Part shown: positions 6,412 to 12,180 of the stretch, in pieces
How positions within the stretch are numbered: the stretch's first letter is position 1
Layout of the letters: each line of letters opens with the position of its first letter
Source: Streptomyces sp. NBC_01335
GTDB lineage: Bacteria; Actinomycetota; Actinomycetes; Streptomycetales; Streptomycetaceae
DNA length: 64,000 nucleotides
Assembly: GCF_035953295.1 (NCBI RefSeq)
Contig: NZ_CP108370.1
Coordinates: forward strand, 1,550,001 to 1,614,000
Direction: 5' to 3'
The notes under the pieces: generated by a model
What the model saw: only the letters and a program-made list of their open reading frames with translations
Told to the model about the DNA's origin: nothing
Database searches by the model: none
Position numbers and translations under genes: made by a program

Positions 6412-7113
6412 ATGACCAGCCCCGATGCCGCATCGCTCGTCCGCGACCACACCGTCTACTCCTGTGTGATGGGGTCGCGTGCGTTCGGGCTGGCGACCGA
6501 GGGGAGCGACATCGACCGGCGTGGGGTGTTCCTCGCGCCGACCGCCTCGTTCTGGCGGTTCGAGAAGCCGCCGACGCACCTGGACGGTCCCGCGCCGGAG
6601 CAGTTCTCGTGGGAGCTGGAGCGTTTCTGCGAACTGGCCCTGCGCGCCAACCCGAACGTCCTGGAGTGCCTGCACTCCCCGCTGGTGGAGCGGATCGACG
6701 ACACCGGCCGCGAACTCCTCGCGCTGCGGGACGCCTTCCTGTCCCGGGAGGTGTACGCCACCTTCACCCGGTACGCGACGGGTCAGCGCCGGAAGCTGGA
6801 GGCCGACGAGCGGACGCACGGCGCGCCGCGCTGGAAGCACGCCATGCATCTGCTGCGCCTGCTGATGTCGGCCCGGGACCTGCTGCGTACCGGGGTGCTC
6901 ACCATCGATGTCGGCGAGCGGCGGGAGGAGCTGCTCGCGGTGAAGCGGGGCGAGGTGGGGTGGCCCGAGGTGGAGCGCCGGATGACGCGACTGGCCGGGG
7001 AGTGCGAGGGGGCCGTCGGCCGGTCCCCGCTGCCGGACCGGCCCGACCGGGCCCGGGTGGAGGAGTTCCTCGTACGGACCCGGCGGGCCTCGGCGCTGAA
7101 CGGCGGCCGGTAG
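6412..7113 (+). CDS. DNA polymerase beta superfamily nucleotidyltransferase (RlaP-like)
   Basis: The 233-residue product carries the pol-beta nucleotidyltransferase signature GSRAFGLATEGSDIDRRGVF at residues 22-41, in which GSxxxG and the DxD-like SDID bind metal and nucleotide. It matches the RlaP-type family (pol-beta domain followed by a helical bundle), seen here as RKLEADERTHGAPRWKHAMHLLRLL and SARDLLRTG. Such enzymes transfer a nucleoside monophosphate to an unknown acceptor; the family name comes from association with RNA ligases, but no ligase is encoded here. It converges on the NAD salvage operon with only 200 bp between them. The acceptor is unknown. Start ATG has no clear ribosome binding site; see the TACCCT element upstream. 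Confidence 0.82.
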   Translation: MTSPDAASLVRDHTVYSCVMGSRAFGLATEGSDIDRRGVFLAPTASFWRFEKPPTHLDGPAPEQFSWELERFCELALRANPNVLECLHSPLVERIDDTGRELLALRDAFLSREVYATFTRYATGQRRKLEADERTHGAPRWKHAMHLLRLLMSARDLLRTGVLTIDVGERREELLAVKRGEVGWPEVERRMTRLAGECEGAVGRSPLPDRPDRARVEEFLVRTRRASALNGGR

Positions 7114-7313: not shown

Positions 7314-8336
7314 TCACGAGTCCCAGAGCGCCCCCAGCGACAGCAGGTCGCTCCGGTACTCGATCCGCTCGGCCCACTCCTTGGGCCAGGCCGAGGCTCC
7401 CAGGTGGGCGCCGGCGAGCGCGCCGGTGAGGCAGGCCAGCGAGTCGGAGTCGCCCCGGGTGCAGGCGGCCCGGCGCAGGGCGGTGACGGGTTCCTCGGGG
7501 AAGAGCAGGAAGCAGTGCAGGGCCGTCGCGAGGGCCTCCTCGGCGATCCAGCCGTCCCCCGTGCGCTCGCAGGGGTCGGTCTCCGGGGACGGGTCGCGCA
7601 GGGCGTCCTGGACGCGGGTCAGCACCTCCAGGCACTCGTCCCAGCCGCGCTGGATGTAGGACTGGGCGGAGGCGTCGTGGGTGTGGCGCCAGAGGTCGCC
7701 GAGCCAGCGCTCGTGGTAGCGGCTCCGGTTCTCGTACGCGTAGCTGCGCAGCTGGCCGACGAGGCCGAGGGGCTCGGCGCCTCTGGCCAGCAGGTGGACG
7801 GCGCGGGCCATCAGGTCGGAGGCGGCCAGGGCGGTGGGGTGGCCGTGGGTCAGGGCGGCCTGGAGCTGGGCGGCGCCGGCGCGCTGTTCGTCGCTGAGGC
7901 CGGGGACCAGTCCGACGGGGGCGACCCGCATGTTGGCGCCGCACCCCTTGGAACCGGTCTGGCTGGCTTCCTGCCAGGGGCGGTCGCCGTCGAGGAGCCG
8001 GCAGGCGACCATGCAGGTGCGGCCGGGGGCGCGGTTGTTGTCGGGCGAGTGGTACCAGTCGACGAACTCCTCCCGGACCGGCCGGGCCAGCCGGAGCCCG
8101 GTGAGCGGGCCCCGGTCCATGGCGGTGCGGATGCCCCGTCCGAGGGCAAGGGTCATCTGGGTGTCGTCGGTGACGAACGCGGGCCGGGGCAGTTCCATCG
8201 CGCGCCACGGGCCGCATTTGGCCAGGATGGCGGGCACGTCGTTGAACTCGGTCGGGAAGCCCAGTGCGTCGCCGAGGGCGAGTCCGACGAGCGAGCCGGT
8301 GGCGGCCTGTTTGGTGCGGGTTCTGGTGACGATCAC
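7314..8336 (-). CDS. ADP-ribosylglycohydrolase family protein
   Basis: Hydrolyses ADP-ribose from modified proteins or small molecules (DraG/ARH family). The 340-residue product shows the family start TGSLVGLALGDALGFPTEF, the metal-binding VTDDTQMTLALGRGI (residues about 55-69) and the closing RGDSDSLACLTGALAGAHLG, in which the Asp/Ser positions complete the dinuclear metal site (family consensus GDTDTIA; here GDSDSLA). Length and motif order are canonical. It starts at a GTG overlapping the stop of the NrtR-like gene by four bases, so it is the last gene of the NAD salvage operon. Target (protein, nucleic acid or free ADP-ribosyl compound) is unknown; the operon context suggests recycling of ADP-ribose into NAD. 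Confidence 0.93.
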   Translation of the reverse strand: MIVTRTRTKQAATGSLVGLALGDALGFPTEFNDVPAILAKCGPWRAMELPRPAFVTDDTQMTLALGRGIRTAMDRGPLTGLRLARPVREEFVDWYHSPDNNRAPGRTCMVACRLLDGDRPWQEASQTGSKGCGANMRVAPVGLVPGLSDEQRAGAAQLQAALTHGHPTALAASDLMARAVHLLARGAEPLGLVGQLRSYAYENRSRYHERWLGDLWRHTHDASAQSYIQRGWDECLEVLTRVQDALRDPSPETDPCERTGDGWIAEEALATALHCFLLFPEEPVTALRRAACTRGDSDSLACLTGALAGAHLGASAWPKEWAERIEYRSDLLSLGALWDS

Positions 8337-9100
8337 GGGGTTCTTCCTTCCGGTCGCAGGAGCGGGGGGTGCAGGGCGGTGGCGGTGCCCGCCCGGTAGA
8401 GGGCGGCGGGTTTGCCCCGGCCCCCGGTGCGGCGCGGGGGCCCTTCGACGGCCTCGACGAAGCCGGACGTGGCGAGGACCTTGCGCCGGAAGTTGGGGCG
8501 GTCGAGTGCGGTGCCCCAGACGGTTTCGTAGACCTGCTGGAGTTCGCCGAGGGTGAACTCGGCGGGGCAGAACGCCGTTGCCAGGCAGGTGTATTCGAGC
8601 TTGGATCCGATGCGGTCGTGGGCGTCGGCGAGGATGGTGCCGTGGTCGAAGGCGAGCGGCCCCGGCACCCCGGTGTCCTCCTCGCCGAAGGCCCACCAGC
8701 GGGCGCTGACGGCGTCGCCGCCGCCGCGCGGTTCGGGCAGGTCCGGCAGGAGCGCCGCGTACGCGACGGAGACGACCCGCATCCTCGGGTCGCGGTCCGG
8801 TTCGGTGTAGGTGCGCAGTTGTTCGAGGTGGACCTCGCAGACGGTGTCCTCGTCCAAGCCGGTCTCCTCGGCCAGTTCGCGCCGGGCGGCCTGCGGGGCG
8901 GACTCACGGGGGGCGACGAATCCGCCGGGGAGCGCCCAACGCCCCTTGTACGGTTCCTCGCCGCGTTCCACGAGCAGCACGTGGAGCCGCCCTTCGCGGA
9001 CCGTGAAGACGGCGAGGTCGACGGTGACGGCGAACGGGGTGAAGGCGTACGGGTCGTAGCCCTCCGGGGCCGCCGCGGGTTCAGGGGCCGGGGTGTTCAT
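8333..9100 (-). CDS. NrtR-like regulator: Nudix domain plus winged helix
   Basis: NrtR proteins repress NAD genes and respond to ADP-ribose or a related metabolite through a Nudix-fold sensor. This 255-residue protein has a Nudix domain at residues about 20-150 and then the NrtR-type winged helix (FTLGELQQVYETVWGTALD and the following NFRRKVL). The Nudix box (GFVAPRESAPQAARRELAEE then TGL) matches G-x5-E-x7-REU-x-EE-x-GU completely, so ADP-ribose hydrolysis may be retained, unlike many NrtR members. Its ATG overlaps the stop of nadR (ATGA) and its stop overlaps the ADP-ribosylglycohydrolase start (GTGA). Autoregulation through the palindrome before pnuC is inferred. The C-terminus has a basic Gly/Arg linker and no membrane segment. 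Confidence 0.9.
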   Translation of the reverse strand: MNTPAPEPAAAPEGYDPYAFTPFAVTVDLAVFTVREGRLHVLLVERGEEPYKGRWALPGGFVAPRESAPQAARRELAEETGLDEDTVCEVHLEQLRTYTEPDRDPRMRVVSVAYAALLPDLPEPRGGGDAVSARWWAFGEEDTGVPGPLAFDHGTILADAHDRIGSKLEYTCLATAFCPAEFTLGELQQVYETVWGTALDRPNFRRKVLATSGFVEAVEGPPRRTGGRGKPAALYRAGTATALHPPLLRPEGRTP

Positions 9101-10176
9101 CGTCGCTCCGGGAGTGGGGGGTTGAAGTGCCAGCCGGACGCGAGGAGTTCGTCGACGGCGGCGACGGCGGTGGCGAGCCGCTGTTCGCGGGTGCCGGTGA
9201 TCTCCACGAACCGGCGTCCGGTGCGGGTGAGTTCGGCGCGGAAGCGGTCCGTCATCCAGGGCCGCAGCTCCTCGCCGTCGCGCAGCCCGTCGTCCTCGAA
9301 GGGGACGCCCTCGTGGTCGGTGAGGAGCCACAGGTGGTGGTGGACGCGGTCGGCGGTCTCCTCGACGCGCGGGTTGCGCCCGCCGACGTACCGCTCGTGC
9401 CAGACGGTGGTGGCGAAGGAGTCGGTGTCGCAGAAGAGCACCGGCGATCCGGTCCGTGCGGCGGCCTCCTCGCGGTCGTTCTGGACGGCGGCGATCAGCG
9501 GGAAGTCGCCGGTGGTGAAGACGACGTCCTCCCACTGGGCGCCGGGGTGGTCGGCGCGCAGGGCGGCGAGTTTCTGTTCGCTGAACTCCCGTCCGTACTC
9601 CGGCACGTCGCGTGTCCTGGCCCACACCCCGCCGCGTCGGCGGTAGTGCTCGGCCAGGGCGAGCGTCAGGGTGGTGGTGCCGGTGGACTCGGCGCCGAGC
9701 ACGACGACCCGGCGGGCGAGCGCGGCGCGTACCGGCGGCTCCAGGAAGTCCCAGCAGGCGACGGGGTCCTCGCGGACGGCCGTGCCGGAGACCGGGAAGA
9801 CGGTGCGGTCCGGGTCGACGGAGACGGGCTCGGCACCGAAGCGCCGGGCGAGTTCGTCGCCGTACGCCTCCGAGGAGAAGACGGCGTCCACCCGTTCGGG
9901 GACGGCGGCGGTGAACACCGCCATGTGCGCGTCCCAGACCGCGGGGTCGTGGACGTCCATCCGTATGTCGTCCACCGCCCCGACGACCGTGGCGGCGGGG
10001 TGCGTCTCGCGCATCCAGGCCACCCGGTCGGCGAGCGGCACCGATTCGACCCCGGCGGCGCAGACGAGGACGGTGAGCCGCTCGCAGCGGTCCTGGGCGG
10101 TACGGACGAGGTGGTGGTGGCCTGCGTGCGGCGGGTAGAACTTGCCGAGCACCAGGCCGTGGGCGTACTTCTTCAC
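9097..10176 (-). CDS. nadR: NadR-like NMN adenylyltransferase / nicotinamide riboside kinase
   Basis: Converts nicotinamide riboside imported by PnuC to NMN and NAD. The 359-residue product starts at a GTG (KKYAHGLVLGKFYPPHAGHH): the GKFYPPHAGH motif is the adenylyltransferase nucleotide site, and SGTAVRED near residue 135 is the matching ISSTxIR-type motif. The C-terminal half is a P-loop kinase domain (VVLGAESTGTTTLTLALAEH, near residue 160) with a later DTDSFATTVWHERY. Notably the P-loop reads GAESTGTT: the Walker lysine is replaced by threonine, so the kinase step may work differently or be lost. There is no N-terminal helix-turn-helix, unlike enterobacterial NadR. Start overlaps the pnuC stop by four bases. 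Confidence 0.9.
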   Translation of the reverse strand: MKKYAHGLVLGKFYPPHAGHHHLVRTAQDRCERLTVLVCAAGVESVPLADRVAWMRETHPAATVVGAVDDIRMDVHDPAVWDAHMAVFTAAVPERVDAVFSSEAYGDELARRFGAEPVSVDPDRTVFPVSGTAVREDPVACWDFLEPPVRAALARRVVVLGAESTGTTTLTLALAEHYRRRGGVWARTRDVPEYGREFSEQKLAALRADHPGAQWEDVVFTTGDFPLIAAVQNDREEAAARTGSPVLFCDTDSFATTVWHERYVGGRNPRVEETADRVHHHLWLLTDHEGVPFEDDGLRDGEELRPWMTDRFRAELTRTGRRFVEITGTREQRLATAVAAVDELLASGWHFNPPLPERR

Positions 10177-10844
10177 GCCGCCACCTCCGCGGGTCCGGCC
10201 GGGCGGCCGGCCGCACCCGGGCCCGTCGCGAGGTCGCGCCGCCAGGAGCGCAGCCCGGCCACGCAGAGCGCGAGGAAGCCGACGTAGAGCAGCGAGGTCA
10301 GGTAGAGGCCCTTGTGGGCGTAGAGCGGGATGTAGACGAGGTCGGCGGCGATCCAGAGCCACCAGGACTCGACCCGCTTGCGGCTCTGCCCGTAGGTCGC
10401 CATCAGGGAGAGCGCGGTCGTCAGCGCGTCCCAGAACGGCACGGTCGAGTCGGTGGCGCGGGCGAGCAGGAGAGTCAGCGCGAGGGTCCCCACCACCCCC
10501 GCCGCGAGCAGCCAGGTCCATTCGGCGCGCGGCGTACCGCGTACCGGCAGGACAGGTGCTCCTGGTCCACCCCCGTGGGTCCAGGTCCACCAGCCGTACG
10601 CGGCGAGGGCGATGAAGACGATCTGGAGTCCGGCGTCGGCGTAGAGGCCGGACTGTGCGAAGAGCAGTACGAAGAAGAGGTTGTTGGCGATGCCGACCGG
10701 CCAGTTGGCCAGGTGCTGGCGCACCACGAGCCAGACGCAGAGGGCCCCGCTGCCGAATCCGAGCACCTCGGTCCAGCTGACCGGGGTGTCCAGCCAGGTC
10801 ACCAGGGGTTGCTGCAGGGGGTCGAGAACATCCGCGAGACTCAC
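10173..10844 (-). CDS. pnuC: PnuC nicotinamide riboside transporter
   Basis: Imports nicotinamide riboside across the cell membrane by facilitated diffusion, trapped by downstream phosphorylation. The 223-residue product has about seven hydrophobic segments and the PnuC signatures LANWPVGIANNLFFVLLF (N/W-rich substrate site), YGWWTW and YGQSRKRVESWWLWIAADLV. The GTG start has AAGGAGG five bases upstream, which decides it. A palindrome covering the presumed -10 and transcription start lies directly before the ribosome binding site. First gene of pnuC-nadR-NrtR-ADP-ribosylglycohydrolase; all three junctions overlap by four bases. Confidence 0.94.
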   Translation of the reverse strand: MSLADVLDPLQQPLVTWLDTPVSWTEVLGFGSGALCVWLVVRQHLANWPVGIANNLFFVLLFAQSGLYADAGLQIVFIALAAYGWWTWTHGGGPGAPVLPVRGTPRAEWTWLLAAGVVGTLALTLLLARATDSTVPFWDALTTALSLMATYGQSRKRVESWWLWIAADLVYIPLYAHKGLYLTSLLYVGFLALCVAGLRSWRRDLATGPGAAGRPAGPAEVAA

Positions 10845-10854
10845 GCCCGCCTCC

Positions 10855-10877
10855 TTAATGGTCACTCTGACTATAAA
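10855..10877 (-). promoter_or_regulatory. Palindromic operator (predicted NrtR site) over pnuC -10
   Basis: Near-perfect 23-bp inverted repeat centred on GTCA-CTC-TGAC, with 8 of 10 half-site positions matching. On the coding strand it contains TATAGT (10875-10870), a good -10, and its far edge touches the AAGGAGG of pnuC. A repressor bound here would cover the transcription start. Assignment to the NrtR-like protein encoded in the same operon is inference from context. Confidence 0.65.
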
Positions 10878-10896
10878 GGTGGTCCGGGACATGCGA

Positions 10897-10951
10897 AAGG
10901 CCCGCGGCCGGTTCCGTTCAGAAAGTTCGAACGGAACCGGCCGCGGGCCTT
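10897..10951 (-). terminator. Terminator after rluB, 23-bp perfect stem
   Basis: AAGGCCCGCGGCCGGTTCC... arm at 10897-10919 pairs without mismatch with 10929-10951 around a nine-base loop. It sits 17 bases after the rluB stop and upstream of the pnuC promoter region, insulating the two operons. Confidence 0.9.
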
Positions 10952-10968
10952 CGCAGAGCCGGGAAGGG

Positions 10969-12180
10969 CTACAGACCGACCTCGCGCATCAGCATGCCGA
11001 CCTCGGTGTTGGTCAGGCGGCGCAGCCAGCCGGACTTCTGGTCGCCCAGCGGGATCGGCCCGAAGGACGTCCGCACCAGCCGGTCGACGGGGAAGCCGGC
11101 CTCGGAGAGCATCCGGCGGACGATGTGCTTGCGGCCCTCGTGGAGGGTCACCTCGACCAGGTAGTTCTTGCCGGTGTTCTCGACGACCCGGAAGTGGTCG
11201 GCGCGGGCGTACCCGTCCTCCAGCTGGATGCCGTCCTTGAGCCGCTTGCCCAAATCGCGCGGGAGCGGGCCCTGGATCGCCGCGAGGTACGTCTTCTTCA
11301 CGCCGTACTTCGGGTGGGTGAGGCGGTGGGCGAGCTCACCGTGGTTGGTGAGCATGATGATGCCCTCGGTCTCGGTGTCCAGCCGGCCGACGTGGAAGAG
11401 CCGCGTCTCACGGTTGGTGACGTAGTCGCCGAGGCACTGACGGCCGTCCGGGTCCTCCATCGAGGAGACGACACCGGCCGGCTTGTTCAGCGCGAAGAAG
11501 AGGTACGACTGGGTCGCGACGGTCAGTCCGTCGACCTTGATCTCGTCCTTCTGCGGGTCGACGCGCTTGCCCTGCTCCAGCACGATCTCGCCGTTGACCT
11601 CGACGCGCGCCTGCTCGATCAGCTCCTCGCAGGCCCGCCGCGAGCCCATGCCGGCCCGGGCGAGGACCTTCTGCAGCCGCTCGCCCTCCTGCTCGGCGCC
11701 CGGGTGGGTCCTGACCACCTTGAAGTCCGGCTTGTCCGCGTACCGGTCGCGGTTGCGCTGCTCGATCTTCGCGTCCAGCTCGCGCGGCCGGGCCTGGCCC
11801 GAGGGGCCGCGCCGGAAGCCGCCGCGGGCGTTGCCCGGCTGCGGGGACTTGGGTCCGCCCTTGGCGCCGCCGCGGGCCGAGGCACCGCGGCCCTTGCGCG
11901 CTTCGCTGTCGCCGGCGCCCGACGAACTGGTCGAGGGGCCCACGTCGTAACGGCGCTCCTCCGGGCGGGGGCGGCGCGGACGCTGCTCCTGCTGGTCGTC
12001 GCGCCCGCCTCGGCCCTGGGCCGGCCCGCGACCGCCCTGGCCGCCCTGACCGCGGCCGCCCTGGCCACCGCCCTGACCGCCGCCCTGGGGCTTCCGGAAG
12101 GACCCGCCGCTGCCGCCCCGGGGGTTCCGGTTGCCGCCGCCGCTGCTGCCGCTTCCGCTGTTCCTGCCACTGCTTCGCAT
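10969..12180 (-). CDS. rluB: 23S rRNA pseudouridine synthase RluB, with long basic N-terminal tail
   Basis: Isomerises a uridine in helix 80 of 23S rRNA. The catalytic region occupies roughly residues 160-400: an S4 RNA-binding domain (RLQKVLARAGMGSRRACEEL), then the RsuA/RluB signature GRLDTETEGIIMLTNHGELA with the catalytic Asp, and a late EGRKHIVRRMLSEAGFPVDR. Ahead of it is a 150-residue Gly/Arg/Gln/Ser-rich tail (repeated GGQGG and RGG-like units), probably disordered and RNA-binding. ATG start; its A overlaps the scpB stop (TGATG), a coupled junction. An in-frame TTG one codon earlier is not used. Order parA-scpA-scpB-rluB-cmk-der is conserved in actinobacteria. Confidence 0.95.
   Translation of the reverse strand: MRSSGRNSGSGSSGGGNRNPRGGSGGSFRKPQGGGQGGGQGGRGQGGQGGRGPAQGRGGRDDQQEQRPRRPRPEERRYDVGPSTSSSGAGDSEARKGRGASARGGAKGGPKSPQPGNARGGFRRGPSGQARPRELDAKIEQRNRDRYADKPDFKVVRTHPGAEQEGERLQKVLARAGMGSRRACEELIEQARVEVNGEIVLEQGKRVDPQKDEIKVDGLTVATQSYLFFALNKPAGVVSSMEDPDGRQCLGDYVTNRETRLFHVGRLDTETEGIIMLTNHGELAHRLTHPKYGVKKTYLAAIQGPLPRDLGKRLKDGIQLEDGYARADHFRVVENTGKNYLVEVTLHEGRKHIVRRMLSEAGFPVDRLVRTSFGPIPLGDQKSGWLRRLTNTEVGMLMREVGL

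Follow-up and report, generated by a model that had tools for sequence, protein, structure and literature searches.

The nrtR-draG pair as the conserved unit of an NAD-related operon in Streptomyces, with a predicted operator and apparent regulator exchange

The minus strand of a 64,000-nucleotide stretch of the Streptomyces sp. NBC_01335 genome (the window; contig NZ_CP108370.1, positions 1,550,001 to 1,614,000) carries, at positions 7314-10878, the operon pnuC-nadR-nrtR-draG. It encodes a nicotinamide riboside transporter, a NadR-like enzyme, a predicted repressor composed of a Nudix sensor and a winged helix (NrtR1) and an ADP-ribosylglycohydrolase. Among relatives the conserved unit is nrtR-draG, and the genes for salvage of nicotinamide adenine dinucleotide (NAD) are variable. 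The analysis is sequence-based as a whole: operon structure, operator conservation, nrtR-draG linkage, operator exchange and conservation of the Nudix box are read from the genomes themselves. The explanation built on them, in which NrtR1 would be a self-repressing ADP-ribose sensor with draG as primary target, salvage as an add-on and the paralogue NrtR2 as substitute, is considered likely.

Constant and variable members of the operon

Two surveys underlie the counts of this section, both of related genomes, so that their counts are not independent: the best 80 draG loci (nearest loci), all in records named Streptomyces, and 121 genomes of the genus with thresholds of E<=1e-60 for draG and E<=1e-85 for nrtR1. 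In 79 of the 80 nearest loci nrtR is located directly upstream of draG by a 400-base rule, the exception being a locus (L158) whose nrtR match starts 1063 bases upstream of draG. Among the genus genomes, draG was detected in 99/121 and nrtR1 in 78/121, and the two matches are at most 131 bases apart in all 78 nrtR1 genomes; 21 of the other 43 genomes carry draG. The draG homologues of this set are mostly 69-89 % identical and usually have their place after rluB. An earlier interpretation of the window (the sequence-only reading) had tied draG to the NrtR regulator, and this adjacency, together with a paralogue-type operator at 12 of 14 nrtR1-less draG genes in the usual place (see below), bears it out.

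Both pnuC and nadR are present in 57 of the 80 nearest loci and neither in 18, while four have nadR only and one pnuC only, at the thresholds used; of the 18 loci with neither gene, two (L129, L136) are cut off upstream and in two (L143, L150) the pnuC match is weaker or shorter. In two genomes (G119, locus L221, and G024, locus L225) pnuC-nadR is located elsewhere with the operator there too, in G024 accompanied by a second nrtR. A pnuC match of just 37 residues remains behind the operator in locus L046. The pair was discarded as the defining part of the operon, since it comes and goes among relatives. The sequence-only reading, which had described an NAD-salvage operon, was therefore correct about the NAD genes and mistaken about the main character of the operon.

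Outside the genus the linkage was not detected: in the class, the 30 best NrtR_WHD loci comprise 5 of the same genus, all with draG next to nrtR, and 25 others, none with it, as searched by tblastn with the window draG (E 1e-4, 1.5-kb flanks), by which divergent hydrolases could be missed. A linkage of nrtR and draG as a wide bacterial pattern was considered with this count; pairing of this type is claimed in general for other lineages in PMC9503650.

The predicted operator and an apparent exchange of regulators

The predicted operator (Table 1) contains the -10 hexamer TATAGT and extends to the Shine-Dalgarno sequence AAGGAGG. Its 23-base palindrome (10855-10877) matches its own reverse complement at 16/23 positions and ends 10 bases before the GTG start codon of pnuC; the description of a palindrome covering the -10 and the start thus holds for the -10 and for the likely transcription start, and not for the codon. 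TTCGCA-16-TATAGT is the sole promoter-like match in 10700-11050 (1 found; shuffles mean 0.0, standard deviation 0.1).

Within 3 mismatches the operator consensus has one site in the 8.36-Mb genome, at the operon. A role of the palindrome as general NAD-gene operator of this genome was rejected, given this single site and a different, paralogue-type site at nadA. With up to 2 mismatches, a match was found in 83/121 genus genomes (reversed-pattern control 0), including 74 of the 78 nrtR1 genomes, where it may lie away from the operon; the remaining nrtR1 genomes are G025, G083 and G127, with a weaker site, and G028, cut by a contig end. Conservation upstream of related operons, the refuting test named in the sequence-only reading, did not refute the palindrome: the operator (at least 15/20 positions) is present in 77/77 of the nearest draG loci with upstream DNA, L129, L136 and L191 being counted as without upstream DNA, of which L191 nevertheless has a site. 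It heads the operon whether the first gene is pnuC or nrtR, and stands before nrtR where pnuC-nadR is missing. A first survey of 25 close nrtR loci gave 23/24 with upstream DNA; the exception (L058) is a close nrtR of another family, with no draG or operator near it. The 78 collected sites all share TTTAT, GTC, GAC, T20 and the final two A, and variation is greatest in the right arm (positions 18, 19 and 21). In three loci (L047, L052, L054) nrtR is preceded by tandem operators that overlap, at a distance of about 15-16 bases.

The 21 draG genomes without nrtR1 at E<=1e-85 comprise three with an nrtR beside draG despite the threshold (G070, 65 % identity; G143, part aligned; G104), 14 with draG in its usual place and four with draG elsewhere. 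Twelve of the 14 have, starting 14 to 71 bases upstream of draG, a palindrome that reads TTTATyGTCA-N3-TGACrATAAA or nearly so (13-16 of 16 positions); the highest score elsewhere in the 14 loci is 10/16. It differs from the NrtR1 operator mainly in the base before GTC, which is C/T instead of A, and shares its half-site with the operator before nrtR2, present in 20/20 nrtR2 loci. NrtR2 was found in 20/22 genomes queried. Since 12/14 nrtR1-less draG genes in the usual place carry an operator resembling that of NrtR2, an exchange of regulators seems to have kept draG under control of the NrtR type. Control by NrtR2 could be the older state, as the midpoint-rooted draG tree places some exchange rows at its base.

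The two regulators differ in the predicted recognition helix, where residue 205 is Arg in 114/114 NrtR1 rows and His in 11/11 NrtR2 rows (from 10 loci, as the own gene counts twice); the wing differs as well. The alignment comprises 128 of 132 nrtR loci in three groups (omitted: L203 and L207, <66 % identity; L214 and L136, partial) and includes the NrtR1 sequence of the window; NrtR1 and DraG rows repeat some genomes from two collections. The third group (L069-L073, a few genomes, 48-54 % identity) has Tyr, His or Ser at position 205; four of its five loci have no NrtR1-type operator and L073 has a weak match. In G104 the gene between rluB and draG (L207) is an nrtR1 that seems to be decaying, as it reads out of frame over the first helices of the winged-helix domain; the operator combines one NrtR2-type arm with one ATGGTC arm of the kind found in some NrtR1 sites. 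This genome may have been caught between two regulators; it is a single case, and a sequencing error is possible.

NrtR2-type sites also precede nadA in 29/30 loci vs 3/89 comparison windows of the same loci, and a gene for an SPFH/Band_7 protein in 24/24 loci vs 0/95 comparison windows (NrtR2 pattern); on the debit side, the nadA and NrtR2 consensus strings were drawn from the very loci counted, so that the nadA and nrtR2 counts describe rather than test. Judging from these sites, NrtR2 probably controls nadA, itself and the SPFH gene via a near-identical operator, and draG where nrtR1 is missing. In the NBC_01335 genome two NrtR2-type palindromes, 34 bases apart, lie upstream of nadA (G000:C1:2019914-2021107; L248), a spacing kept in most genus loci, and the SPFH gene (G000:C1:7261639-7262649; L308), outside the window, has tandem NrtR2-type sites. 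In G133 (L222) an SPFH gene that shares this N-terminus has one NrtR1-type and one NrtR2-type site in its promoter, and in three class loci outside the order nrtR and that SPFH gene are arranged head to head. No paper on NrtR together with SPFH was found in the literature searched.

The sites before nadA, and the position of nrtR beside nadA in 12 of the 25 non-genus loci in the set of 30 best NrtR_WHD loci, would also fit a plain NAD-shortage regulon, in which ADP-ribose or NAD from any NAD consumer is sensed and DraG is a co-induced housekeeping enzyme without any loop; NAD genes are common targets of NrtR regulators (PMC6800001, PMC4666351). Such a regulon, which leaves unexplained why draG and not pnuC-nadR is the constant partner and why an NrtR-type operator stands at draG where nrtR1 is absent, is given slightly less than an even chance. 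It is compatible with most of the explanation preferred here, NrtR1 as an ADP-ribose sensor acting primarily on draG, and the two estimates are not exclusive.

Gene products and surroundings

Neighbouring genes of the operon are joined by three 4-base overlaps, GTGA (10173-10176), ATGA (9097-9100) and GTGA (8333-8336), precisely as the sequence-only reading had them; they permit translational coupling, and the lockstep translation it had added goes one step beyond what overlaps imply. Its four gene identities were upheld by Pfam and NCBIfam, with NadR and DraG below the equivalog cut-offs. The GTG start of pnuC was picked for its Shine-Dalgarno sequence; another ATG in the same frame is located upstream, at 10892. 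Residues 6-329 of NadR cover most of the TIGR01526 model, yet the equivalog cut-off is not reached, hence the name NadR-like; as the match begins at residue 6, the protein is taken to be without an N-terminal helix-turn-helix (HTH) domain.

NrtR1 fits the NrtR family in its N-terminal Nudix domain and winged helix and in the palindromic candidate operator upstream of its own NAD-gene operon; against NF050029 it scores 125 bits, short of the equivalog cut-off of 400. Its structure model (predicted local distance difference test, pLDDT, 78) is nearest to AraR 5bs6 and SoNrtR 3gz6/3gz5 (probability 1.00). The Nudix box is complete, as had been stated, with G60, E66, R74, E75, E78 and E79 in 114/114 NrtR1 and 11/11 NrtR2 rows and G81 in 113/114 NrtR1 rows. 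This conservation argues that the box has kept a role, in catalysis or in the binding of ligand and metal, and NrtR1 may hydrolyse ADP-ribose, thereby ending the signal.

Table 1 Features of the operon region (positions in the window)
Feature	Position	Strand	Basis or remark
draG, ADP-ribosylglycohydrolase, ARH/DraG fold	7314..8336	-	PF03747 1.2e-67
nrtR1, Nudix sensor + winged-helix repressor (predicted)	8333..9100	-	PF00293 + PF21906 (NrtR_WHD) above cut-off
Predicted recognition helix, residues 201-210	8471..8500	-	Predicted structure model; holds Arg205
Complete Nudix box, residues 60-82	8855..8923	-	Pattern GX5EX7REUXEEXGU matched
nadR-like, nicotinamide mononucleotide adenylyltransferase / ribosylnicotinamide kinase	9097..10176	-	PF13521; TIGR01526 190 bits vs cut-off 341
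pnuC, nicotinamide riboside transporter	10173..10844	-	PF04973 3e-58; TIGR01528 above cut-off
Predicted operator CTTTATAGTCA-GAG-TGACCATTAAG, 25-base imperfect palindrome	10854..10878	-	Conservation; single genome site
Promoter-like TTCGCA-16-TATAGT	10870..10897	-	Consensus match only; -10 lies within operator
Perfect inverted repeat between rluB and pnuC, 23-base arms, 9-base spacer	10897..10951	-	Probable rluB transcript end

DraG scored 74.3 bits against TIGR02662 (DRAG equivalog, cut-off 337) and is therefore regarded as a protein of the ARH/DraG fold rather than as proven DraG. With the DraG-DraT system of Rhodospirillum rubrum it shares the ADP_ribosyl_GH fold and the DDT and GDxD motifs, which align with solved DraG chains, and differs in staying so far under that cut-off; its motifs DDTQM and GDSDS are intact and kept in at least 130/131 aligned rows. 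A DraT search of the own genome gave no match, the control search being likewise silent. By locus order, SCO1766 of S. coelicolor is presumably the orthologue of the window draG. SCO1766 is uncharacterised, like several others of the species, and one of seven or eight DraG/ARH homologues (PMC5087735, PMC9411070); in a term search NrtR was absent from the main text of both papers. In the literature searched, NrtR and draG were not found reported together for Streptomyces, and founding NrtR papers may already list Streptomyces sites.

The flanking genes scanned are rluB, scpA, those for chorismate mutase and prephenate dehydrogenase, cmk and rlaP, with no phosphatase, chaperone, nuclease or transferase among them. 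The inverted repeat upstream of pnuC was missed by the terminator scan, which requires a T run. RlaP (PF10127, RNA repair nucleotidyltransferase family; 6412-7113, plus strand) is encoded convergently with draG, and 42/80 related loci have a further rlaP downstream of draG in the same orientation. These RlaP genes would suit a DraG that strips ADP-ribose from nucleic acids, e.g., RNA phosphate ends, together with RlaP in RNA repair; the ARH-like SCO5809 of S. coelicolor is among the hydrolases acting on RNA phosphate-end ADP-ribose (PMC11833690). The RlaP gene of the window, however, lies outside the operon in convergent orientation, SCO5809 is listed as a homologue separate from SCO1766 (PMC5087735, PMC9411070), and the assignment for this DraG clade is putative; a nucleic-acid substrate is regarded as unlikely.

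The proposed circuit and its relation to known systems

According to the preferred explanation, NrtR1 would sit on the -10 box and repress its own operon. ADP-ribose, rising with NAD breakdown or with the removal of ADP-ribose from modified molecules, would bind the Nudix domain and take NrtR1 off the DNA, upon which DraG would be made and, where present, PnuC and NadR too, which would rebuild NAD from nicotinamide riboside. In this order of things draG would be the primary target and salvage an add-on, and NrtR1 may close the signal by hydrolysing ADP-ribose itself. NrtR2 would hold nadA (de novo NAD synthesis), itself, the SPFH gene and, where nrtR1 is absent, draG. Repression, ADP-ribose as inducer, its hydrolysis and DraG as its source are steps that we infer, repression at the -10 and release by ADP-ribose from the known behaviour of the NrtR family: ADP-ribose counters DNA binding by NrtR of Shewanella, Synechocystis, S. 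suis and M. smegmatis (PMC4666351, PMC6800001). A loop in which released ADP-ribose would induce the operon is plausible.

NrtR1 resembles known NrtRs in domain composition, in its palindromic predicted operator and in its NAD-gene neighbours; the cluster of S. suis is nadR-pnuC-nrtR (PMC6800001). Unlike in NAD-type NrtRs, its constant partner is an ADP-ribosylglycohydrolase. The operator reads TATAGTCA-N3-TGACTATA here and GTTTTCGA-N7-TCGAAAAC in Mycobacterium. The Nudix box is complete and invariant in NrtR1, whereas the Nudix motif is called impaired in NrtR regulators of NAD metabolism in the Bacteroides AraR paper (PMC4666351). NrtR of M. smegmatis has three Nudix-box changes and has lost activity, whereas the prototypic NrtR is called bifunctional in the same paper (PMC6800001).

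The closed-loop idea is not new in kind. In 2022 ADP-ribose release was proposed as inducer for operons centred on an ADP-ribosylglycohydrolase (ARG) with Nudix- or WYL-HTH regulators (PMC9503650, section 3.8). These operons and the Streptomyces locus have in common the hydrolase with a Nudix-HTH repressor, no transferase (here in the scanned flanks) and the same proposed induction. The ARG-centred operons further comprise phosphatases, chaperones and restriction endonucleases, turn over rapidly and are taken as anti-viral (PMC9503650); the Streptomyces locus differs in its NAD salvage genes, its usual fixed chromosomal place and its wide presence in the genus. Compared with such conflict systems, an ARG and a Nudix regulator were found, and phosphatase, chaperone or effector partners were not; nor is rapid turnover, a hallmark in PMC9503650, seen, given the usual fixed place, the wide genus presence and scanned flanks free of such partners. 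A counter-measure to foreign ADP-ribosylating enzymes (phage or toxin), as in ARG-centred operons, could be read from the shared pairing (section 3.8) and from RlaP next door with its second copy in 42/80 loci. A usually fixed position after rluB, homologues of mostly 69-89 % identity in 99/121 genus genomes and the lack of phosphatase, chaperone and nuclease genes in the scanned flanks make this function quite improbable.

Several points weigh against the preferred explanation, NrtR1 as ADP-ribose sensor with NrtR2 as substitute. Conservation of the left operator arm may partly reflect the -10 box. No palindrome was found at two nrtR1-less draG genes in the usual place (G009, G026), and the four draG genes elsewhere, of which two are partial, have no site either. 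Two of the 12 exchange genomes, G017 and G126, gave no NrtR2 match; both are very fragmented (about 1140 and 1420 contigs). On the draG tree (quick method) the exchange state amounts to 5 changes, of which well-supported branches force 2, and two long branches meet at the exchange rows. The NrtR2 pattern at 3 mismatches has 9 sites in the own genome (reversed control 1), five of them examined and four further ones at L080-L083. The ligand could be NAD, since C. glutamicum NdnR of the NrtR family responds to NAD (PMC4666351).

A more far-reaching version is speculative and given a modest chance: in a self-limiting circuit, DraG would free ADP-ribose, which would release NrtR1 from the draG promoter and would then be destroyed by NrtR1, so that the response times itself; selection to hold draG in this circuit would be so strong that each operator arm has repeatedly changed by one base to make up for a missing nrtR1, handing draG to NrtR2, a change matched by Arg/His205. 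Going by the title of a 1996 study by Shima, ADP-ribosylated proteins reportedly change in Streptomyces development. For one uncharacterised Streptomyces DraG homologue the locus supplies a predicted regulator together with a predicted operator and a signal that can be tested. It is also a natural example of two paralogous repressors that apparently differ in target choice through a single operator base in each arm and a single residue of the helix, and between which a target seems to have been exchanged. The SPFH gene would be an unexpected addition to the NAD regulon, of which it is a candidate member.

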